From the NCBI GenBank assembly GCA_028685875.1, contig JAQUDD010000002.1, forward strand, positions 1 to 64,000: a stretch of 64,000 nt of DNA, given 5' to 3'. Below, one piece after another: positions 7,684 through 63,844 of the stretch (its first letter is position 1; each line of letters starts with the position of its first letter). Below the pieces are notes generated by a model. The model saw only the letters and a program-made list of their open reading frames with translations, did no database searches and was not told where the DNA came from. Made by a program: the position numbers and the translations under genes. The stretch is from Candidatus Absconditabacteria bacterium. Its GTDB lineage: Bacteria > Patescibacteriota > Gracilibacteria > Absconditabacterales > Absconditicoccaceae.

Positions 7684-7834
7684 GGATTCTTCACTACGTT
7701 CAGAATGACAAAGTGTTTGTCATCCTGAGTGAAACGAAGGATCCAGTAAATAACATGGATTCTTTCCCTTTGTTGCACTCTGGGTCAGAATGACGAGTAT
7801 TTTTGGATTGCCACGTCTCTGGCTCGCAATGATG
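7684..7834. repeat. Cluster of four dispersed palindromic repeat units
   Basis: Units: GGATTCTTCACTACG...AGAATGAC (7684-7709), GTCATCCTGAG...GGATCC (7719-7744, inverted relative to the first), GGATTCTTTCCC...CAGAATGAC (7757-7794) and GGATTGCC...CTCGCAATGATG (7804-7834). Related units occur at 23610, 39496, 55687, 60354 and 61186. The block ends 6 bp before the sufB stop codon. Confidence 0.85.
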
Positions 7835-23609: not shown

Positions 23610-23724
23610 GTCATTGCGAGCGAAGCGTGGCAATCCAAATAAAAAGGATTTTTTTTACCTAGATTCTTCCTCCTTTCGGTTCCGTCTCCCTTCGCTCATC
23701 TTCACCTCCAGTCGTCTGAATGAC
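23610..23724. repeat. Dispersed palindromic repeats between korA and korB
   Basis: GTCATTGCGAG...GGCAATCC (23610-23636) and an AGATTCTTCC...GTCTGAATGAC unit (23660-23724). Same families as at 7684, 39496 and 55687. They lie inside what is otherwise a two-gene operon. Confidence 0.8.
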
Positions 23725-32748: not shown

Positions 32749-34299
32749 TTATTGATTTTGTAGTTCTGTTATAATGTTTTGATGCATAGCATACATTTCT
32801 TCTTCTATCTGAGAGGGTTGAAGACGAGGTAATAATGCTTCTAGGATAAGGTCTCAGAGGATATTATAAATATTCCATCCTTTTCTCTCCAGTACGAGAG
32901 GAAGATATTCTTCATTGTTATTGTATTCAATTTCTGCATTTTCTGCTCCAAGTCGCAATCCATATTTAATTTTGTTTATTGTATCCTTCCTATTAAAGAA
33001 CGGTTCAGTTAGTGGAAGATATTCCTCAAATGAATATCTTTCCTCTTTTTCTCCTCAAATAACATCAATTTCGTCTCTATTAGAGAATTGAAAATTATTT
33101 GTTAGTGTTGCAAACATGTGATATTCTGCTTTATAGGTGTTTTTATTAAGTGACTCTTTATTGATCGTTAAGGTTTCTTGATATTCATGAAGGAGCCTTT
33201 CTTTAACTTCCAAGTTGAGTCAATAGTTCAAAAGCTGTTTTGTGCTTTTATGAGCAATATCCATCATCACCATTCCAATGAGTCTTTGAACATATCCTGC
33301 ATGTGAATTGAGATACTTATCTGCCAGAGTGAGTTGAAGTATATTTAAATCTATTGCTCTTTCATACTCCCCTTGCTCAGCATAATAGATACCTATGTTT
33401 CATAGACTTCTTACTATAGGTTGTAATCCTATTAATTTAGGAAAATACATTTCCTCATCTTGTCGCTGTAAATTTGCAATTCTTTCTACTTGATCAAAAA
33501 AATCTGACTCCTCTAATTGTTGTAAATATTCCAATAATTCTGGATTGTTTTCTATGAATTCACCATGTGTTTTATAATATTTTTCTGTTCGTCTATCATT
33601 TCGATATCTTCGCATCTGATTTTCTTTATCTAATCCAAATCCATCCCATTTTTCATAAGGAAATTTTTCCCTAATTATATTTAAAGTTTCTATATCATCA
33701 AAACTCGTTCCAAACACTCTTGCAAATTCTTTATATCCATTTTCCTCTGCTGAGAGATTTGGATCTAATCGTGTCGCTTCAAAGTAAGCGTCTGGAATAA
33801 TTTCTGGGGTTTGTTGTGCTTGTTCCCCTATGAAGAAATAGATGCATCCCAGAATAATCACTATAATTATTGCTATGAGCGTAGATCTTCGCTGTGGGGT
33901 ATCAGACTTTTGCTTCTCTGGAAGCTGGGCAAGATGAAGTTTTTGTCTTTTTTGTTGGAGTTCGAGAGAAATACAAAAACTGATTACAAAAAGTGTGAGC
34001 GTTCGCATTAACATTTTAGATGTTGGGTCTTTTGCGTAGTAAGTAATTAATCCTGTAAGTGCAATCATTCCTCATGAGAGGATAAGAAACGCTATCTTTA
34101 TGCATTTGAGCGTAGTAAGGTTCGGGATGAAAATCGCAATACTACAAAAGAAAAAGAAAACTGAGATAAGTATCCCAATCGTTCCGTGCAGAGGAAGCAA
34201 AAGGTTAAATGCTTGAATAGTAAGGAGAACGCTTCGAATCCCTATGAGAAAGAGAATTCAACTGGCTATTTTATTTCGGAAAAGGATTTTTCTGTGCAT
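32749..34299 (-). CDS. Membrane protein with a TPR-like soluble region, 516 aa
   Basis: The N-terminus has four hydrophobic helices (ILFLIGIRSVLLTIQAF, TIGILISVFFFFCSIAIF, IAFLILSGGMIALTGL, LTLFVISFCISLEL). A basic loop follows, then a fifth helix (STLIAIIIVIILGCIYFF) and a long polar C-terminal region. That region contains YYAEQGEYERAIDLNILQLTL, a TPR-like helical pair, but only one clear unit. At least five TGA glycines. No catalytic motif seen. Downstream neighbour on the same strand is murA, about 110 bp away across a terminator. Confidence 0.72.
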
Positions 34300-34460
34300 G
34301 TGTTTTTTTATTTTAGTTAATAAATATTATCCTATCCATTATATAGATCTATCTTATTTATGCAAAAAGTTCTATTTTCTTCTCTCTCTTGTAAACGGAG
34401 AATGAAATCGTAGTATGGAAATTAGATTTTTTATTCTCTTGTGTGATCCTGCATTTTGTT

Positions 34461-36116
34461 ATGAAATATGAACTCCTAAACGAAGAATATTGACTTTCTT
34501 TTATAGAAAGACTACTGAAAATCAGGACGGTAGCATCAGATGTTGATGCTTTTTTTCAGCCAACTTTAGGTAATAGTTGGATTGATCCTTTTTTACTCAA
34601 TGATATGGAGAAAGCAGTAGATCACATTATCACAGCTATGAAAAAGAATCACAAGATTATGGTTTTTGGAGACTATGATGTGGATGGAATCACTTCGAGC
34701 TACAGTGTGTATAAATTTTTGAGATATTTTCTGCAGTATCCAAATGTAAGTATTATGTATCCCAGTAGAAGAGAAGATGGTTATGGATTGAAGGTAAAAC
34801 ATCTGGAGATGATGAAGGAAAAAAATATTGATTTGGTGATTACTGTGGATAACGGGATTACTTCCATAGAAGAAGCTTTTTATGCGAAGACGCTTGGCAT
34901 TGATTTGATTGTGACGGATCATCATCATCCTCTAAATGAGCTTCCCTCTGCTATTGCAGTGGTAAATCCTAGCTGCTCTCCTCGTTATCCTTTTAAAGGA
35001 TTGGCTTGAGTCTGAGTAGCTTTCAAACTGATTATGGCGATTCTCTCTAAAACTACATTGGATGTAAAAAGAAAGAATCAGATTTTTCATTTCTTTTTGC
35101 CGATTGTGGCGATTGGGACGGTAGCAGATATTGTTCCTTTGCTGAGTGAAAATAGGTTTATGGTGAAGAAGGGTCTAGAACTTATCAACTCCTCCGCTGA
35201 TACCTTACCTCCTGCATTGAAAGGATTTCTCTCGTATCTGAATATTAAAAGTCCTATTGATACCTTTCATATTGGGTTTATGATTGGACCGAGAATTAAT
35301 GCATGAGGGAGAATGGAAAGTCCTTATGATAGTTTGAATATCTTTCTTCATGAGGGAGAGGAACAAGTAGCGTTTTTGGAGAAAATAGATGCAATCAATA
35401 CAGAAAGAAGAAAAACTCAAGAGCAAGGAGTAAAAATAGCTGAAACCATGATTAATCCCGAAGGAAGTTTACTTTGTGCTTATAGTGAGGAGTTTCATGA
35501 AGGAGTGATCGGGATTATTGCGGGAAGATTAACGGAAAAATATTATAAACCTTCCATTGTATTTAAGATTGAACCTGAAAAAGGGACGGCAAGTGCAAGT
35601 TTGAGAGGTCCTGCATATTTTAATGTGATTGATATGATTCTTGCTCATGAGGAATTGCTTGAGAGATATGGAGGGCATAAGGGGGCTGGAGGATTAACGG
35701 TGAAGATTGAGAATTTAGCGCTTCTCTGTGAAAAGATGGAGCGTTATTGTGTTGATAAGATTCAGATTTCTGATTTGGAGAAAGTGATCAGTGTAGATAC
35801 GAAGATTTTTCCTCATGAATGGATTGAGGATAATCTTAGCTATTTAGAAAAATTTGCTCCTTTTGGAGAAGGGAATAAGGAACCTCTTTTTTTGTTTGAA
35901 GACTTGGAAGTACACAGAGTTGAAAAAGTCTGAAACAAAGGAAATGGACATATGAAAATTTATGCGTATCGAGGAGAAATGCTGATGAGTTTGCTTTTTT
36001 GGGGGAAGTGAGCTGATTGTGAGTTGGTCCCAAGTCAAATTTCTGTGATTGGAAGTATCAAAAGAGATACCTTTAATGGAGGATATTTCATTGATGGAAC
36101 GCAGATTTTGGAATAA
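34461..36116 (+). CDS. recJ: Single-stranded-DNA-specific exonuclease RecJ
   Basis: A 551-residue DHH-family 5'-3' exonuclease. Start ATG 34461 (MKYELLNEEYGLSFIERLLK) is set by the open frame once TGA is Gly. Motifs: IMVFGDYDVDGITSSYS, DLVITVDNGI, IVTDHHHPLNELP (DHH), AIGTVADIVPL, GFMIGPRINAGGRM, GVIGIIAGRLTEKYYKPS and the DHHA1 glycine signature RYGGHKGAGGLTV. The C-terminal OB-like region includes EKFAPFGEGNKEP. Six TGA glycines. Confidence 0.96.
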
Positions 36117-39495: not shown

Positions 39496-39798
39496 GTCAT
39501 CCTGAGTGAAACGAAGGATCCAAGGATGCATTTTTTTTGTTTCTGGATTCTTCACTGCGTTCAGAATGACGGGATGTCATTGCGAGCCAAAGGCGAAGCA
39601 ATCCAAGTAAAAGGAATTTCTTTTTTATCTGGATTCTTTCCCGCTGTTCGCTTTGCTCAGCGGGACGCGGCCTCCTTACAGTTCTCCCGCAGTTCTGCGG
39701 GACAGGCTGCCTTTCTTTGTTCGTCTTCACTTCCAGTCGTCTGAATGACGATTTATGTTCAGAATGACAGTTGGATTGCTTCGCAAGCTCGCAATGAC
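39496..39798. repeat. Large cluster of dispersed palindromic repeats
   Basis: Units in order: GTCATCCTGAG...GGATCC (39496-39521), GGATTCTTCACTGCG...GAATGAC (39545-39570), GTCATTGCGAG...GCAATCC (39576-39604), a GC-rich block with GCTCAGCGGGACGCGGCC and TTCTGCGGGACAGG, GTCTGAATGAC and CAGAATGAC units, and GGATTGC...CTCGCAATGAC (39773-39798). The third and last form an inverted pair like the ends of the GIY-YIG cassettes at 60354 and 61186 but enclose no gene. Confidence 0.85.
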
Positions 39799-58940: not shown

Positions 58941-59079
58941 TTCTTGTAAGAAAGAAAAATAAAAGTCTGATTTCTGTTATTCTGGGCAAAGCGAAGAATT
59001 TCTATCGAAAAGAATTCCTTATGTATACATCCCCTTCTTCCACTAAAGCAAGCTCTGGGATACAGAAAACCTCCCCTTC

Positions 59080-59104
59080 CCCTCCTTACAAAGGAGGGCT
59101 TTTG
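59080..59104. terminator. Strong GC hairpin in the lexA-recA spacer
   Basis: CCCTCCTT / AAGGAGGG, 8-bp perfect stem with a 3-nt loop and then CTTTT. Preceded by CTCCCCTTCC. Resembles the C-run/G-run palindrome inserted in lepA at 4259-4276. Confidence 0.6.
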
Positions 59105-59133
59105 CAATTTCTTTATAAGAATCTCTTTGACGA

Positions 59134-59152
59134 TGTCAAATCATTTTTGACA
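59134..59152. promoter_or_regulatory. Candidate LexA operator upstream of recA
   Basis: Perfect inverted repeat TGTCAAA(5 bp)TTTGACA. A half-site TTTTTGACAAAA recurs at 59163-59176. Located 128 bp before recA ATG and in the shared lexA/recA spacer. No experimentally known LexA box for this group, so this is inference from position and symmetry. A plausible recA promoter, TTGATT (59211) with TAGGAT (59233), is downstream. Confidence 0.45.
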
Positions 59153-59279
59153 AAAATCAATCTTTTTTTGACAAAATTTTATTTCAAGTTCCCAACTAAT
59201 AAAAATCGTCTTGATTTTTTATTTTTTTTTGTTAGGATGATATCGTTATGTTATTTTTTACACATTATCACATCAACAA

Positions 59280-60353
59280 ATGACGACAAAGAACCCGCAA
59301 GGATTAAAAGATGCATTGGCAAGTATTGAGAAACAGTTTGGAAAATGAGCCGTGATTAGAATGGGAGATACTTCAAATGTTAGCCTAGTAAATACTTTCC
59401 ATAGTGGATCCTATATTTTAGATTTAATCTTGGGTGGTGGATATCCAGAGGGAAGAGTTGTAGAAATCTATGGACCTGAATCGAGTGGAAAAACTACTGT
59501 TGCACTTCACGCGATTGCAGAGATTCAAAAGAGAGGCGAAATTGCTGCATTTATTGATGCTGAGCATGCACTTGATCCTCACTATGCTCGTAAGCTGGGA
59601 GTTAATATTGATGACTTATTCCTTTCTCAGCCTGACTATGGAGAACAGGCTTTACAAATTGCTGAAGAACTTGCAAAATCAGGGAATGTTAAATTGATTG
59701 TGATAGATAGTGTTGCTGCCTTGGTTCCTAAAGCAGAAGTAGAAGGAGATATGGGAGATAGCTATATGGGTCTACAAGCAAGAATGATGTCTCAAGGACT
59801 CAGAAAGCTGGCTTCTATCCTTGCAAAGACAGGGACTACTTGCGTCTTTATCAATCAGATTAGAATGAAGATTGGAGTGATGTTTGGAAATCCTGAAACC
59901 ACAACTGGAGGAAACGCTTTGAAATTCTTTGCTTCTCAGAGGATTGAGATTAGAAGAGGAGATAAAATTATGGAAGACAAAGAACAAATCGGATACTTTG
60001 CAAAAGTGAAAGTAGCAAAAAATAAGATTGCAGCACCTTTCAAAACTGCGGAGGTCCCTGTAAAATGGTGAATAGGGTATGATACGGTAACAGATACTAT
60101 TGAGGCTGCTGTTCTTTTAAAATTAATTACCAAAGCAGGAGCTTTCTATACCATAGGAGATCAAAAGCTTCAAGGGAAAGAGAAGCTTTCGCAATATCTC
60201 ATTGCTGAAACGAAGGGATTAGCGGACTTGCAAAAGAAGATTGAATCTAACATCAAAGATATGAGATCAGGGAAGAAAGTGCTCGATGATGAAGTATTTG
60301 ATAATTTAGAGGCGATTGCTGAAGATATCGCAGGAGTGGAAGAGGTTGAGTAG
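59280..60353 (+). CDS. recA: Recombinase RecA
   Basis: 357 residues. [20 protein letters not shown] continues GKGAVIRMGD with a TGA glycine, exactly the conserved FGKG. Walker [65 protein letters not shown] (loop L2 region) and [17 protein letters not shown] follow. A C-terminal acidic tail ends [11 protein letters not shown]. Only two TGA glycines. A GIY-YIG cassette begins on the base right after its TAG. Confidence 0.97.
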
Positions 60354-60748
60354 GTCATTGCGAGCTTGCGAAGCAATCCAAATATTTATAGGTTCAAATC
60401 TTAATGAAAAAGTGATATGTTTACATTATGACTAATCATAAACATTGAACTCTGTATGTTTGAGTTACTTCAAATTTAGAACAAAGAGTTTATCAACATA
60501 AAATGAAGTACTTCAGGTGATTTACAGCAAAATATGATTTAGATAAACTTGTACGATTTCAAGAATCTCCTACAATTCAAGATGCTATTGAGGAGGAAAA
60601 AAGATTAAAGTGAGGGAATCGCAAACAGAAAATTTTGTTAATTGAAAATATTAACCCAAACTGGAAGGATTTGGCTTCATCTTTAGACCTCGTTTAAATA
60701 TGAATATCTACTTATTTGGATTGCTTCGTCCTTCGTCCTCGCAATGAC
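60354..60748. mobile_element. GIY-YIG nuclease cassette 1 with terminal inverted repeats
   Basis: Left end GTCATTGCGAG...GAAGCAATCC (60354-60379) and right end GGATTGCTTCG...CTCGCAATGAC (60718-60748) form inverted terminal repeats around the GIY-YIG gene 60428-60697. The cassette starts immediately after recA TAG. A near-identical cassette lies at 61186-61572. Confidence 0.75.
60428..60697 (+). CDS. GIY-YIG endonuclease-like protein 1
   Basis: 89 residues with TGA read as Gly four times (KHGTLYVGVTSNLEQRVYQH begins with two of them). The GIY-YIG hallmark is GTLYVGVTSNLEQR, where the family has GTLYIGVTSDLxxR. Then FRGFTAKYDLDKLVRFQESP and EEEKRLKGGNRKQKI with the conserved metal-binding Glu and basic region. 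Ends NPNWKDLASSLDLV. It is a very short member, close to an isolated catalytic domain, and is 75-80% similar to the second copy at 61253. Confidence 0.9.
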
Positions 60749-60774
60749 ATTTTACTTCTTCTCTACACATAACT

Positions 60775-61185
60775 ATGACAGAACTACTTCCTTGATACTT
60801 TGCGTATACGATAAATACCACCTTTATCACCAAGCCCGTGGCATTTGAAAATTTTATGCCGGTAGATATTGGAGACTATGCGATCTTTAAGCAGGAATTC
60901 TCCGAGAAATATGGAAATATTAATCGAGAAAGTTGAATGATTGAACATGCTACTCTTCAAGGGAATGGGTGGATTGGTCTTGCCCATCCGCAGGGAGATA
61001 AGGAAATCAATCAAGAGTTTGTTGCCTATGAAATTAAAGGAGATTATGCCCAAATGAAAGATGCGTATGTAAAAATTATGCAAGACTACCCGGAAGCAAA
61101 GGGATATTACAATCTTTATCTTACTGACCCCATGCTTACTCCTATGGAGGAGAATAGAACCTGGATATTGTTAGAAGTGGAATAA
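60775..61185 (+). CDS. GyrI-like small-molecule-binding domain protein
   Basis: 136 residues, two TGA glycines (LLPGYFAYTI and RESGMIEH). The second half, YEIKGDYAQMKDAYVKIMQD, followed by EAKGYYNLYLTDPMLTPMEE and NRTWILLEVE, follows the GyrI/SbmC pattern, where a helical pair is followed by the Y-x-x-DP turn. It may bind a small ligand or DNA gyrase; no helix-turn-helix is fused. The two GIY-YIG cassettes flank it, the second directly after its TAA. Confidence 0.65.
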
Positions 61186-61572
61186 GTCATTGCGAGCTTG
61201 CGAAGCAATCCTATATACTCAAATTATAATGAAAAAGTGACATGTTTATATGATGACCAATCATAAACATTGAACTCTGTATGTTTGAGTTACTTCAAAT
61301 CTAGAACAGAGAATTTACCAACATAAAACGAAATACTTTTCATGATTTAGTGCTAAATATGGTTTAGATATATTAATCTGGTTTCAAGAATACTCTACCA
61401 TTCAAGATGCTATTCACGAAGAAAAAAGATTGAAATGAGGTAGTCGTAAGCAAAAGATTGAATTAATTGAAGAAATAAATCCATATTGGGAAGATTTAGG
61501 AACGTCTTTAGACTCTGTTTAAATATATATCTCTATTATTTGGATTGCTTCGTCCTTCGTCCTCGCAATGAC
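61186..61572. mobile_element. GIY-YIG nuclease cassette 2 with terminal inverted repeats
   Basis: Left end GTCATTGCGAG...GCAATCC at 61186-61211 and right end GGATTGCTTCG...CAATGAC at 61542-61572, same ends as cassette 1. Again it begins on the base after the stop codon of the preceding gene (TAA at 61183). Internal flanks (AATGAAAAAGTGA upstream of the gene) match cassette 1. Confidence 0.75.
61253..61522 (+). CDS. GIY-YIG endonuclease-like protein 2
   Basis: 89 residues: MTNHKHGTLYVGVTSNLEQR, then FSGFSAKYGLDILIWFQEYS and HEEKRLKGGSRKQKIELIEE, with four TGA glycines at the same places as copy 1. Differences are scattered, including many synonymous changes, so the two copies diverged under constraint and are not a recent duplication or assembly repeat. 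Confidence 0.9.
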
Positions 61573-61582
61573 AATTTGTGAT

Positions 61583-61614
61583 AAGCTGATCTTGAAAAAA
61601 AGGTCAGCTTTTTT
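61583..61614 (+). terminator. Intrinsic terminator
   Basis: AAGCTGA / TCAGCTT stem and T6 tract, directly after cassette 2. Confidence 0.75.
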
Positions 61615-61709
61615 ATACTTCGGGAGTTGAAAAGATGAAAAGAGAAAAAGGTAAAAAGTCGTCTCTCTTTTAATCTTTTATACTTTTAATCTTTTACGCT
61701 TAATCTATT

Positions 61710-62279
61710 ATGAGGGTACCTATTTGAATATCACAGAGACATCTTCATCTTTCTCAAGAAGATGCAAATACCTTATTTGGATCAAATTATGAACTTACAC
61801 CCATAAAAGATCTTTCTCAGCCTGGACAATATGCAGCTGAGGAAACTGTTACCCTCAAATGACCGAAAGGAGAAATTGAAAGAGTAAGAATTCTTGGACC
61901 CTATAGAAAATTTACTCAGGTGGAGATCTTAGCTTCAGATGTATTTAAGCTGGGGACACCTGCTCCTCTCAGAGAATCTGGAGATATTCAAGGAAGCGGA
62001 AGTATCGAAATTATCGGACCAAAAGCAAGTATTATCATTCCTCAAGGATTGATTGTGGCGCAAAGACATATTCATATGACGGTAGCTGATGCAGAAAACT
62101 TTGGAGTAAAAAATGGAGATATCGTGAAGGTAAGTGTGAATGGAGAGAGAGCCGTAGTCTTTGAAAATGTAGTAATTAGAGTGAGTGATAAGTTTGCTCT
62201 GGATATGCATATCGATGTTGATGAAGGAAATGCTGCTGGACTTGCTCAAGGCGCTTGGGGAGAAGTGATTATTAGATAA
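61710..62279 (+). CDS. pduL: Phosphate acyltransferase PduL
   Basis: 189 residues. Two copies of the metal-binding His motif: VPIGISQRHLHLSQEDANTL and LIVAQRHIHMTVADAENFGV. GPYRKFTQVEIL and SDVFKLGTPAPLRESGDIQG match the family between them. Converts acyl-CoA to acyl-phosphate, usually acetyl-CoA to acetyl phosphate, which would pair with the ferredoxin oxidoreductase at 22968-25369 to conserve energy. Two TGA glycines, both in the N-terminal half. Confidence 0.95.
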
Positions 62280-62290
62280 AAAAATCGATA

Positions 62291-62322
62291 AAAAAACTTC
62301 TCAATCACGAGGAGTTCTTTTT
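62291..62322. terminator. Bidirectional terminator between pduL and dnaA
   Basis: AACTTCTC / GAGGAGTT stem (one G-U) with T runs on both strands. Confidence 0.7.
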
Positions 62323-62368
62323 ATAATTGTATTTTATATTAGTAGAAATACAGGGATCATCTAGTATT

Positions 62369-63844
62369 TTATCCTTCTACCCACTCAATAAAGATCTGGT
62401 AATCATGCTTAATATTTTCATCGGTTTTCAGCTTTTTTTCGATATTTCCTATTGCATAAATTGCAGTAGCATGGTTTTTCCCGCCAAAGTAGTCCCCTAT
62501 TTTTTCTAGGGTTCGTTTGAAATATTTCTTTGCGATAAGCATTAAAATTTGTCTTGCTGTAGTGATTTCTTTTTTTCTACTATCAGATTTGAGATCTGCG
62601 ACAGAGATCCCATAGTAGTTTGCAACCATCTCTACGATGGTATCAAAAGACTGAAGTGATTTGCTATTTTGCTCAGAAGTATTGGTAGATTGTGTTCCTG
62701 TTTTTGACTGATATCCCAAAGTTTGTAAACAGGCATGTACATCTTCTTCTGTAATTTCCTGACAGGAAAGTTTTTTTCTCGTGAGGAGGATATTGAGTGC
62801 TCCTTCCAGTTCACGCACATTAGACTTAATATGTTGTGCTACAAGGGAAAGTAGCTCAAAATCAATATGTTCCTGTTTCACTTCAAGTTTAGATTCCAAA
62901 ATAGCAATTCTCGTTTCAAAATCAGGAGCATGGATATCGGCAACTAATCCCAAAGCAAATCTGCTTTTTAATCTTGGTTCGATATGTTGGAGTTCTTTTG
63001 GTGGACGATCTGAAGAGATAATTACTTGCTTTTTCTTGGAATGAAAGTCATTAAAGATGTTATGAAATACTTCTTGAGTTTTGTCTTTATCTGCAAGGAA
63101 CTGGATATCATCAATCAATAAAACATCCACATCATCAAATTTTCTCATCAAGGTATTCATTTTATTATGTCTAAGGGATTGTACGATTTCTTCTACGAGT
63201 TTCGTAGCGGGGAGATAAATTACTACTTTGTGTTGATCATTTTGCATAATTTCATTCCCAATTGCTTGCATCAGGTGGGTTTTTCCAAGTCCGACATTTC
63301 CGTAGAGGAAGAGTGGATTGTAAGCAGTTCCTGGATTCTCTGCTACTGCTTTTGCAGCGGAAAAAGCGAACTGGTTATTCGCACCTGCGACGAAATTATC
63401 AAATCTAAAACTTGGATCAAAGAGAATCCCAAAATAGTCTGATAATTCAGATTTTATATTTTTTTCTGAACTTTGTCTTGTGCTTGCTGCTTCTTCTTTA
63501 ATATTGAGGAGCTTTTTGAGATCGAGAAGTAGATCACTTCCATTGGAAAATGGCTGATATACACGATACTCTACTGTAAATTGGGGATTGTAGACTTGTT
63601 GAACTGCTTCTTTGAAGGATTTATTGAAAATCTTTTTCCCCTGTGCGAGTACAAAATCATTGGGAAATCCGATATATATTTTCTTTTCTTGTTCTTCAAT
63701 GTTGATAATCCCTGATTTTGCTAAAAAGGTCAGAATCTTTTTATGATCATGTTGTGCAGAAATGTGGATAATCACCTTAGTTCGGATATCTTTGAGTAAG
63801 GTTTTCTTTTCCTCATTATACTGCTGAGCCATATCGATAAGCAT
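62369..63844 (-). CDS. dnaA: Replication initiator DnaA
   Basis: 491 residues without TGA. Domain I is divergent (IRTKVIIHISAQHDHKKILT). Domain III AAA+: FVAGANNQFAFSAAKAVAEN, FLYGNVGLGKTHLMQAIGNE (Walker A), VLLIDDIQFLADKDKTQEVF (Walker B), IISSDRPPKELQHIEPRLKS (sensor/arginine finger), NVRELEGALNIL. Domain IV carries the DnaA signature region KYFKRTLEKIGDYFGGKNHA with DNA-contact HATAIYAI. Start at ATG 63844; the second in-frame ATG is four codons later. No obvious box cluster next to it. Confidence 0.96.
   Translation of the reverse strand: MLIDMAQQYNEEKKTLLKDIRTKVIIHISAQHDHKKILTFLAKSGIINIEEQEKKIYIGFPNDFVLAQGKKIFNKSFKEAVQQVYNPQFTVEYRVYQPFSNGSDLLLDLKKLLNIKEEAASTRQSSEKNIKSELSDYFGILFDPSFRFDNFVAGANNQFAFSAAKAVAENPGTAYNPLFLYGNVGLGKTHLMQAIGNEIMQNDQHKVVIYLPATKLVEEIVQSLRHNKMNTLMRKFDDVDVLLIDDIQFLADKDKTQEVFHNIFNDFHSKKKQVIISSDRPPKELQHIEPRLKSRFALGLVADIHAPDFETRIAILESKLEVKQEHIDFELLSLVAQHIKSNVRELEGALNILLTRKKLSCQEITEEDVHACLQTLGYQSKTGTQSTNTSEQNSKSLQSFDTIVEMVANYYGISVADLKSDSRKKEITTARQILMLIAKKYFKRTLEKIGDYFGGKNHATAIYAIGNIEKKLKTDENIKHDYQIFIEWVEG

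Follow-up and report, generated by a model that had tools for sequence, protein, structure and literature searches.

The window (the whole stretch of DNA that was analysed, 64,000 nucleotides) is C14:1-64000, the start of a contig in a genome of 1.03 Mb. In this genome TGA encodes glycine, as is the rule in the Gracilibacteria/SR1 lineage, and recA and the two nuclease genes described here can be read through only with this code. Two compact cassettes in direct orientation, 0.8 kb apart, are found downstream of recA, one of 395 bp at 60354-60748 and one of 387 bp at 61186-61572. Both open with GTCATTGCGAGCTTGCGAAGCAATCC and close with GGATTGCTTCGTCCTTCGTCCTCGCAATGAC, and their ends are inverted (GTCATTGCGAG..GCAATCC), as an earlier note on this DNA had described. 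The left end of the first cassette (60354..60380, + strand) is a CGTC-type REP with a GTC tag, an ATTGC/GCAAT foot and a CCA tail, and abuts the TAG of recA; its right end (60717..60748, - strand) is an inverted REP with a terminal CTCGCAATGAC. The second cassette has its left REP at 61186..61212 (+), abutting a TAA, and its right REP at 61541..61572 (-). Inside, the two cassettes are identical at 320/395 positions (81%), versus ~31% in the flanks (ungapped, 19/60 on the left and 18/60 on the right), and their homology thus stops at the GTC/GAC tags. The first base of each cassette is the first base after the stop codon, exactly as claimed. The stop codon was nevertheless rejected as a target site, since only 2/25 REPs of the family checked abut one, and these two belong to the cassettes. 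No target-site duplication was seen at the cassettes, whose flanks are unrelated, and no transposase gene lies inside them; they consequently have neither hallmark of an insertion sequence or transposon. No Rfam family matched within 59000-62600.

The gene between the cassettes (60754..61185, +) has a frame open from 60754 with a first ATG at about 60775. It matched no Pfam family at E<=0.1, so that its former label, GyrI-like, is without support from Pfam, and no counterpart was detected in the 12 relatives searched. Its position between two cassettes of the same orientation gives it the look of cargo in a composite element.

Each cassette encodes a protein of 97 residues, nuclease 1 at 60404..60697 (+, ATG at 60404) and nuclease 2 at 61229..61522 (+, ATG at 61229), which are 78% identical. 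Their assignment to the GIY-YIG nucleases stands: the GIY-YIG domain is matched above the gathering score (PF01541, Pfam, E 3e-14) and the catalytic Tyr, Tyr, Arg, Glu and Asn are invariant among homologues. The length of 89 residues proposed before is that of a version starting at an internal ATG, which loses the first strand of the GIY motif. The AlphaFold2 model of nuclease 1 is a confident fold (pLDDT 91), and the nearest solved fold is UPF0213 BH0048 (1zg2). Comparison of the two genes gave a dN of 0.13 and a dS of 1.09, and the resulting dN/dS of 0.12 indicates purifying selection on the protein, in agreement with what had been suspected from synonymous changes. The pair is old, given a dS of about 1.1. 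This age, the unrelated flanks outside the tags and the presence of the same bounded REP-GIY-REP unit at unrelated loci in many phyla (see below) make it scarcely credible that the cassettes result from an ordinary local duplication or from homologous recombination between REPs whose role is that of terminators or 3' stabilisers, even if the copies are neighbours in the same orientation, each next to a stop codon.

The cassette ends belong to a larger family. With at most one mismatch, GTCATTGCGAG occurs 8 times in the window versus 0.48 expected, a number reached in 0/100 shuffles, and the whole genome contains 35 exact REP copies versus 0 for the reversed control. Gene-less REPs outnumber the cassettes, and those listed in the earlier note are real: one at 7805..7833 (-), clustered with REPs of two sister families at 7684-7794, a solo copy at 23610..23637 (+), and the left (39576..39605, +) and right (39772..39798, -) partners of an inverted pair without a GIY-YIG gene. 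This genome also has ATTCTG and ATCCTG REPs, which form two sister families. The clusters at 7684-7833 and 39496-39798 mix ATTGCG, ATTCTG and ATCCTG REPs in both orientations, and near-tandem ATTCTG REPs with a spacing of about 96 bp occur elsewhere (G000:C11:25631-26583 and 34017-34732), one of these arrays lying beside a third GIY-YIG gene (L040).

CGTC REPs have been described as intergenic palindromes with an unpaired (C)GTC tag, a stem starting with A and a short CC(A) tail, also occurring as inverted pairs; they include dRS3 of Neisseria, equated with CGTC-1, and RPE-4/RPE-6 of Rickettsia, and were reported without a dedicated transposase, no transposase gene being flanked by them (Di Nocera, De Gregorio and Rocco 2013, PMC3733652). 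The REPs of the window have the unpaired (C)GTC tag, a stem beginning with AT and the CC(A) tail, and, judged by sequence, the cassette ends are CGTC-tagged REPs. When the cassette ends were folded as DNA, ATTGC paired with GCAAT as a 5-bp foot, and GTC and CCA stayed unpaired. Only this foot is firm in the ATTGCG REPs of the window genome, with a variable interior, versus the stem of 8-9 bp and loop of 4-5 nt in the description of CGTC REPs; perfect stems of 8-9 bp are present in other species. Compensation in the inner stem of ATTGCG REPs is weak (mean z -0.36, p 0.014).

The association of the repeat with the nuclease gene was analyzed at 80 homologous loci from a scan of GTDB genomes, which were selected on the similarity of the protein, irrespective of their flanks, and which represent the query's best matches as opposed to a random sample. 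Contigs of metagenome-assembled genomes are among the data and may misassemble repeats. Outward-facing REPs (pattern GTCATNNN..N'N'N'ATCC) have a density of 3.5 per kb at up to 100 bp from the gene, which drops to about 0.03 per kb beyond 1 kb. At 24/80 loci the gene is flanked left and right by REPs (<=300 bp) whose GTC points outward, versus 0.03% of random placements, which bears out the expectation that GIY-YIG genes lie between paired ends more often than by chance; paired ends were found for 6/1455 control ORFs (0.4%). More than half of the 80 loci failed this strict two-ended test. With a relaxed definition of the REP, 71/80 loci have at least one end and 46/80 both, with control rates of 9.6% and 0.2%, respectively. 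The paired loci come from about ten phylum-level lineages, according to record titles. When hairpins were sought with neither tag nor stem specified, a 5' GTC was present at 60/146 of those lying no more than 150 bp from the gene versus 13/265 in control stretches. These comparisons support the view that the placement of a GIY-YIG gene between inverted palindromes is recurrent and no local accident.

The type of REP also follows the nuclease. Left and right stems share an identical 6-mer in 54% of loci, versus 11% after shuffling. On a tree of 92 nucleases, the distribution of ten REP stem types takes 38 changes, versus a mean of 61.8 after shuffling, and none of 200 shuffles reached so low a number. 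The ATTCCC nucleases of Chloroflexota, Pseudomonadota, Patescibacteria and others tend to cluster, in a tree where many forks are weakly supported. Within the window genome, the ATTGCG nucleases and the paralogue flanked by ATTCTG/ATCCTG (L040) are separate lineages with separate REPs. Part of this co-variation may be due to inheritance of whole loci. Among 99 genomes, i.e. the window genome and its relatives, 38 have a GIY gene. With phylogeny ignored, all 11 relatives with at least 9 ATTGCG REPs carry it (11/11, p=9.5e-6), and the mean number of these REPs is 13.5 with the gene versus 1.8 without it (p 1e-7); the association is weaker for ATTCTG REPs (7/10, p 0.036). ATTGCG REPs with CC tails number 35 in the window genome versus 0 in seven congeners, and within the genus the matching nuclease is found only in the window genome. 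In three relatives (G021, G024 and G028; loci L059, L055 and L045), ATTGCG REPs end in GCAATCT and not GCAATCC, at the cassette as well as across the genome, which may reflect a shift in tail specificity.

A different enzyme, such as a RAYT or an IS transposase, could move the REPs, the GIY-YIG gene being a passenger caught between two of them. We know of no strand-transfer activity in GIY-YIG enzymes, which hydrolyse, gene-less REPs are more numerous than cassettes, and some genomes have REPs with no GIY gene detected, namely G015 (8 copies; a single contig, 98% complete) and G012, all of which such a passenger would explain. It would predict neither matching left and right stems nor a REP type that tracks the nuclease tree across phyla, and no transposase gene flanked by CGTC REPs was reported (Di Nocera et al., PMC3733652). 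We thus regard a passenger gene as quite improbable.

Gain and loss were visible at orthologous sites in two other genera. In Azospirillum lipoferum 4B, a block of four REPs and a GIY gene splits sufB from sufC, which have no insert between them in five species (A. oryzae, A. ramasamyi, Azospirillum sp. B510, A. thermophilum and A. argentinense). The sufB-[REP-GIY-REP]-sufC arrangement is read from these alignments as a gain of the cassette, with junctions blurred by divergence. On Sphingobium plasmids, the gap between fnrL and a regulator gene contains REP-GIY-REP in four aligned records; the GIY copy of TYG73 is frameshifted. In the same gap, TomTYG64 has a single palindrome, GTCACCCCGGGTCAAGCCCGGGGTGAC, with both outer tags retained, imperfect in TYG74, and TYG72 and TYG65 have neither cassette nor palindrome. 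GTCACCCCGGGTCAAGCCCGGGGTGAC matches the remnant expected from a deletion between ACCCCGGG half-stems, and this footprint could be due to replication slippage between the 8-bp half-stems. Symmetric palindromes are rare at the loci examined (2 versus 162 ordinary REPs), and no symmetric GTC..GAC scar was found in the window genome and 30 relatives. Unrelated-looking hairpins are present at cassette sites in Azospirillum sp. B510 (L176) and Sphingobium TYG72 (L186), as if these gaps attract palindromes. In other plasmid backgrounds no clean presence/absence junction was found. At the window locus itself, the cassette after recA is absent in 14 relatives, in which the junction is unreadable owing to lost downstream synteny. 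Empty sites, which the earlier note had proposed to look for, are therefore seen in Azospirillum and Sphingobium and not after recA. The link between REPs and GIY-YIG genes is strong and the filling of sites variable, the reverse of the two outcomes (repeats with no link to the nuclease, or sites always filled) that had been named as speaking against a mobile family.

The window proteins have a relative of particular interest. A gonococcal homologue, which we take to be the gene named ssn, is 47% identical to the window protein over 85 residues (E 1e-28) and lies in a dRS3/CGTC-REP array; the REPs nearest to this Neisseria gonorrhoeae gene are in the opposite orientation. Two 2.17-Mb N. gonorrhoeae 'plasmid' records of PLSDB (NZ_CP119140.1 and NZ_CP119142.1) look like chromosomes. 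Work by Chenal and colleagues (Nature Communications, 2025) reportedly defined Ssn as a family of site-specific single-stranded nucleases of the GIY-YIG type. The Ssn of Neisseria meningitidis is reported to cut the repeat NTS, present in hundreds of copies, and to modulate transformation, and thousands of homologues reportedly exist, each with its own target sequences. Mobility is not known to be part of the description of Ssn. Because the gonococcal homologue is this similar and lies in a dRS3 array, dRS3 being CGTC-1, membership of the Ssn family is the best assignment for the window proteins, and their genome also contains a repeat family, with 35 REPs and paired ends at both cassettes. 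The cassettes could hold a domesticated Ssn. Its REPs would then serve as genomic marks and influence recombination and natural transformation, the cassette being immobile and the REPs spreading otherwise. The function reported in N. meningitidis, the position of the gonococcal gene, its 47% identity to the window protein and the dN/dS of 0.12 all suit such a role. We consider it unlikely, though, as cassettes are gained and lost, one genome carries two of them at a distance of 0.8 kb whose homology stops at the REP tags, and presence is patchy (38/99 genomes).

The explanation that we favour as the probable one is that the cassette is a minimal element, a UPF0213-related, Ssn-like GIY-YIG nuclease between inverted CGTC REPs that are its putative recognition sites, and that it works in a REP-RAYT-like manner. 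The nuclease would recognise and nick the REP near the unpaired GTC tag, probably in single-stranded form on the lagging strand or in DNA that is taken up. The Neisseria homologue is reported to cleave its repeat. Specificity would reside in the foot of the hairpin, so that each nuclease serves one REP family, as the co-variation indicates. Host enzymes would then repair and copy the nicked palindromes, by which cassettes and gene-less REPs may be gained, lost and multiplied. GIY-YIG enzymes cut by hydrolysis and are not known to transfer strands, so that completion of the process would fall to the replication or repair machinery of the host, and the model would thus resemble REP/RAYT in logic and not in chemistry. 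Against it speak this lack of a known strand-transfer activity, the REPs in genomes with no nuclease detected (G015, G012), the failure of more than half of the 80 loci in the strict two-ended test, the opposite orientation of the REPs nearest to the gonococcal gene and the failure to find a target-site duplication. Comparative sequence evidence points firmly to a bounded cassette, a specific match of REP and nuclease, selection on the protein, and gain and loss. Of the REP/RAYT-like family proposed in the earlier note, the recurrent architecture and the enzyme-repeat co-variation hold, as do gain, loss and a copy-number correlation; movement of the repeats by the nuclease itself, through active transposition, is a candidate role. 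The GIY-YIG nuclease appears to be the best candidate for the missing enzyme of CGTC REPs. A bolder proposal, a real possibility that we would not yet call probable, is that this nuclease mobilises the CGTC-REP superfamily across bacteria, as an autonomous one-gene element with palindromic ends as substrate and thus a second, independent REP-RAYT lifestyle.

CGTC REPs are among the commonest small bacterial repeats (dRS3, RPE-4/6, GTCATTCCCGCG..., GTCATTCTGAG...), and in the sole survey found they are reported to lack a dedicated enzyme. Their origin would become directly testable with a one-to-one partner of the kind that sequence predicts here across many phyla, the target of each nuclease being readable from its own flanks. 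If true, REP-type repeat families evolved twice around unrelated enzymes. Our literature search found no paper joining GIY-YIG with REP, CGTC or dRS3. The pairing of nuclease and repeat is partly known, having reportedly a precedent in Ssn/NTS of Neisseria, and is not wholly new; what is added is the recognition of the repeats, in many phyla, as CGTC REPs, together with the cassette with its two ends, the co-variation of specificity, and gain and loss.

Several known systems can be compared with the cassettes. E. coli YhbQ, of UPF0213, belongs to the same GIY-YIG fold family, but shares only 27% identity with the window protein, and CGTC REPs are absent from its locus. The CGTC REPs resemble the window ends in tag, stem, tail, inverted pairs and intergenic location, and differ in having been reported without a dedicated transposase (PMC3733652), whereas here they are tied to a GIY-YIG gene. 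The GTAG REPs with RAYT/TnpA-REP share a gene flanked by inverted tagged palindromes, enzyme-specific families and gene-less copies. The RAYT enzyme, in contrast, is unrelated both in fold and in chemistry (an HUH tyrosine, versus hydrolysis by GIY-YIG), its REPs have another tag (GTAG versus GTC), and the cassettes have neither the HUH tyrosine transposase nor the GTAG tag. Ssn, finally, is like the window protein a single-domain GIY-YIG enzyme with a high-copy palindromic repeat, from which the window gene differs in forming a two-ended compact cassette, in a bacterium that reads TGA as glycine, with gain and loss seen in other species.
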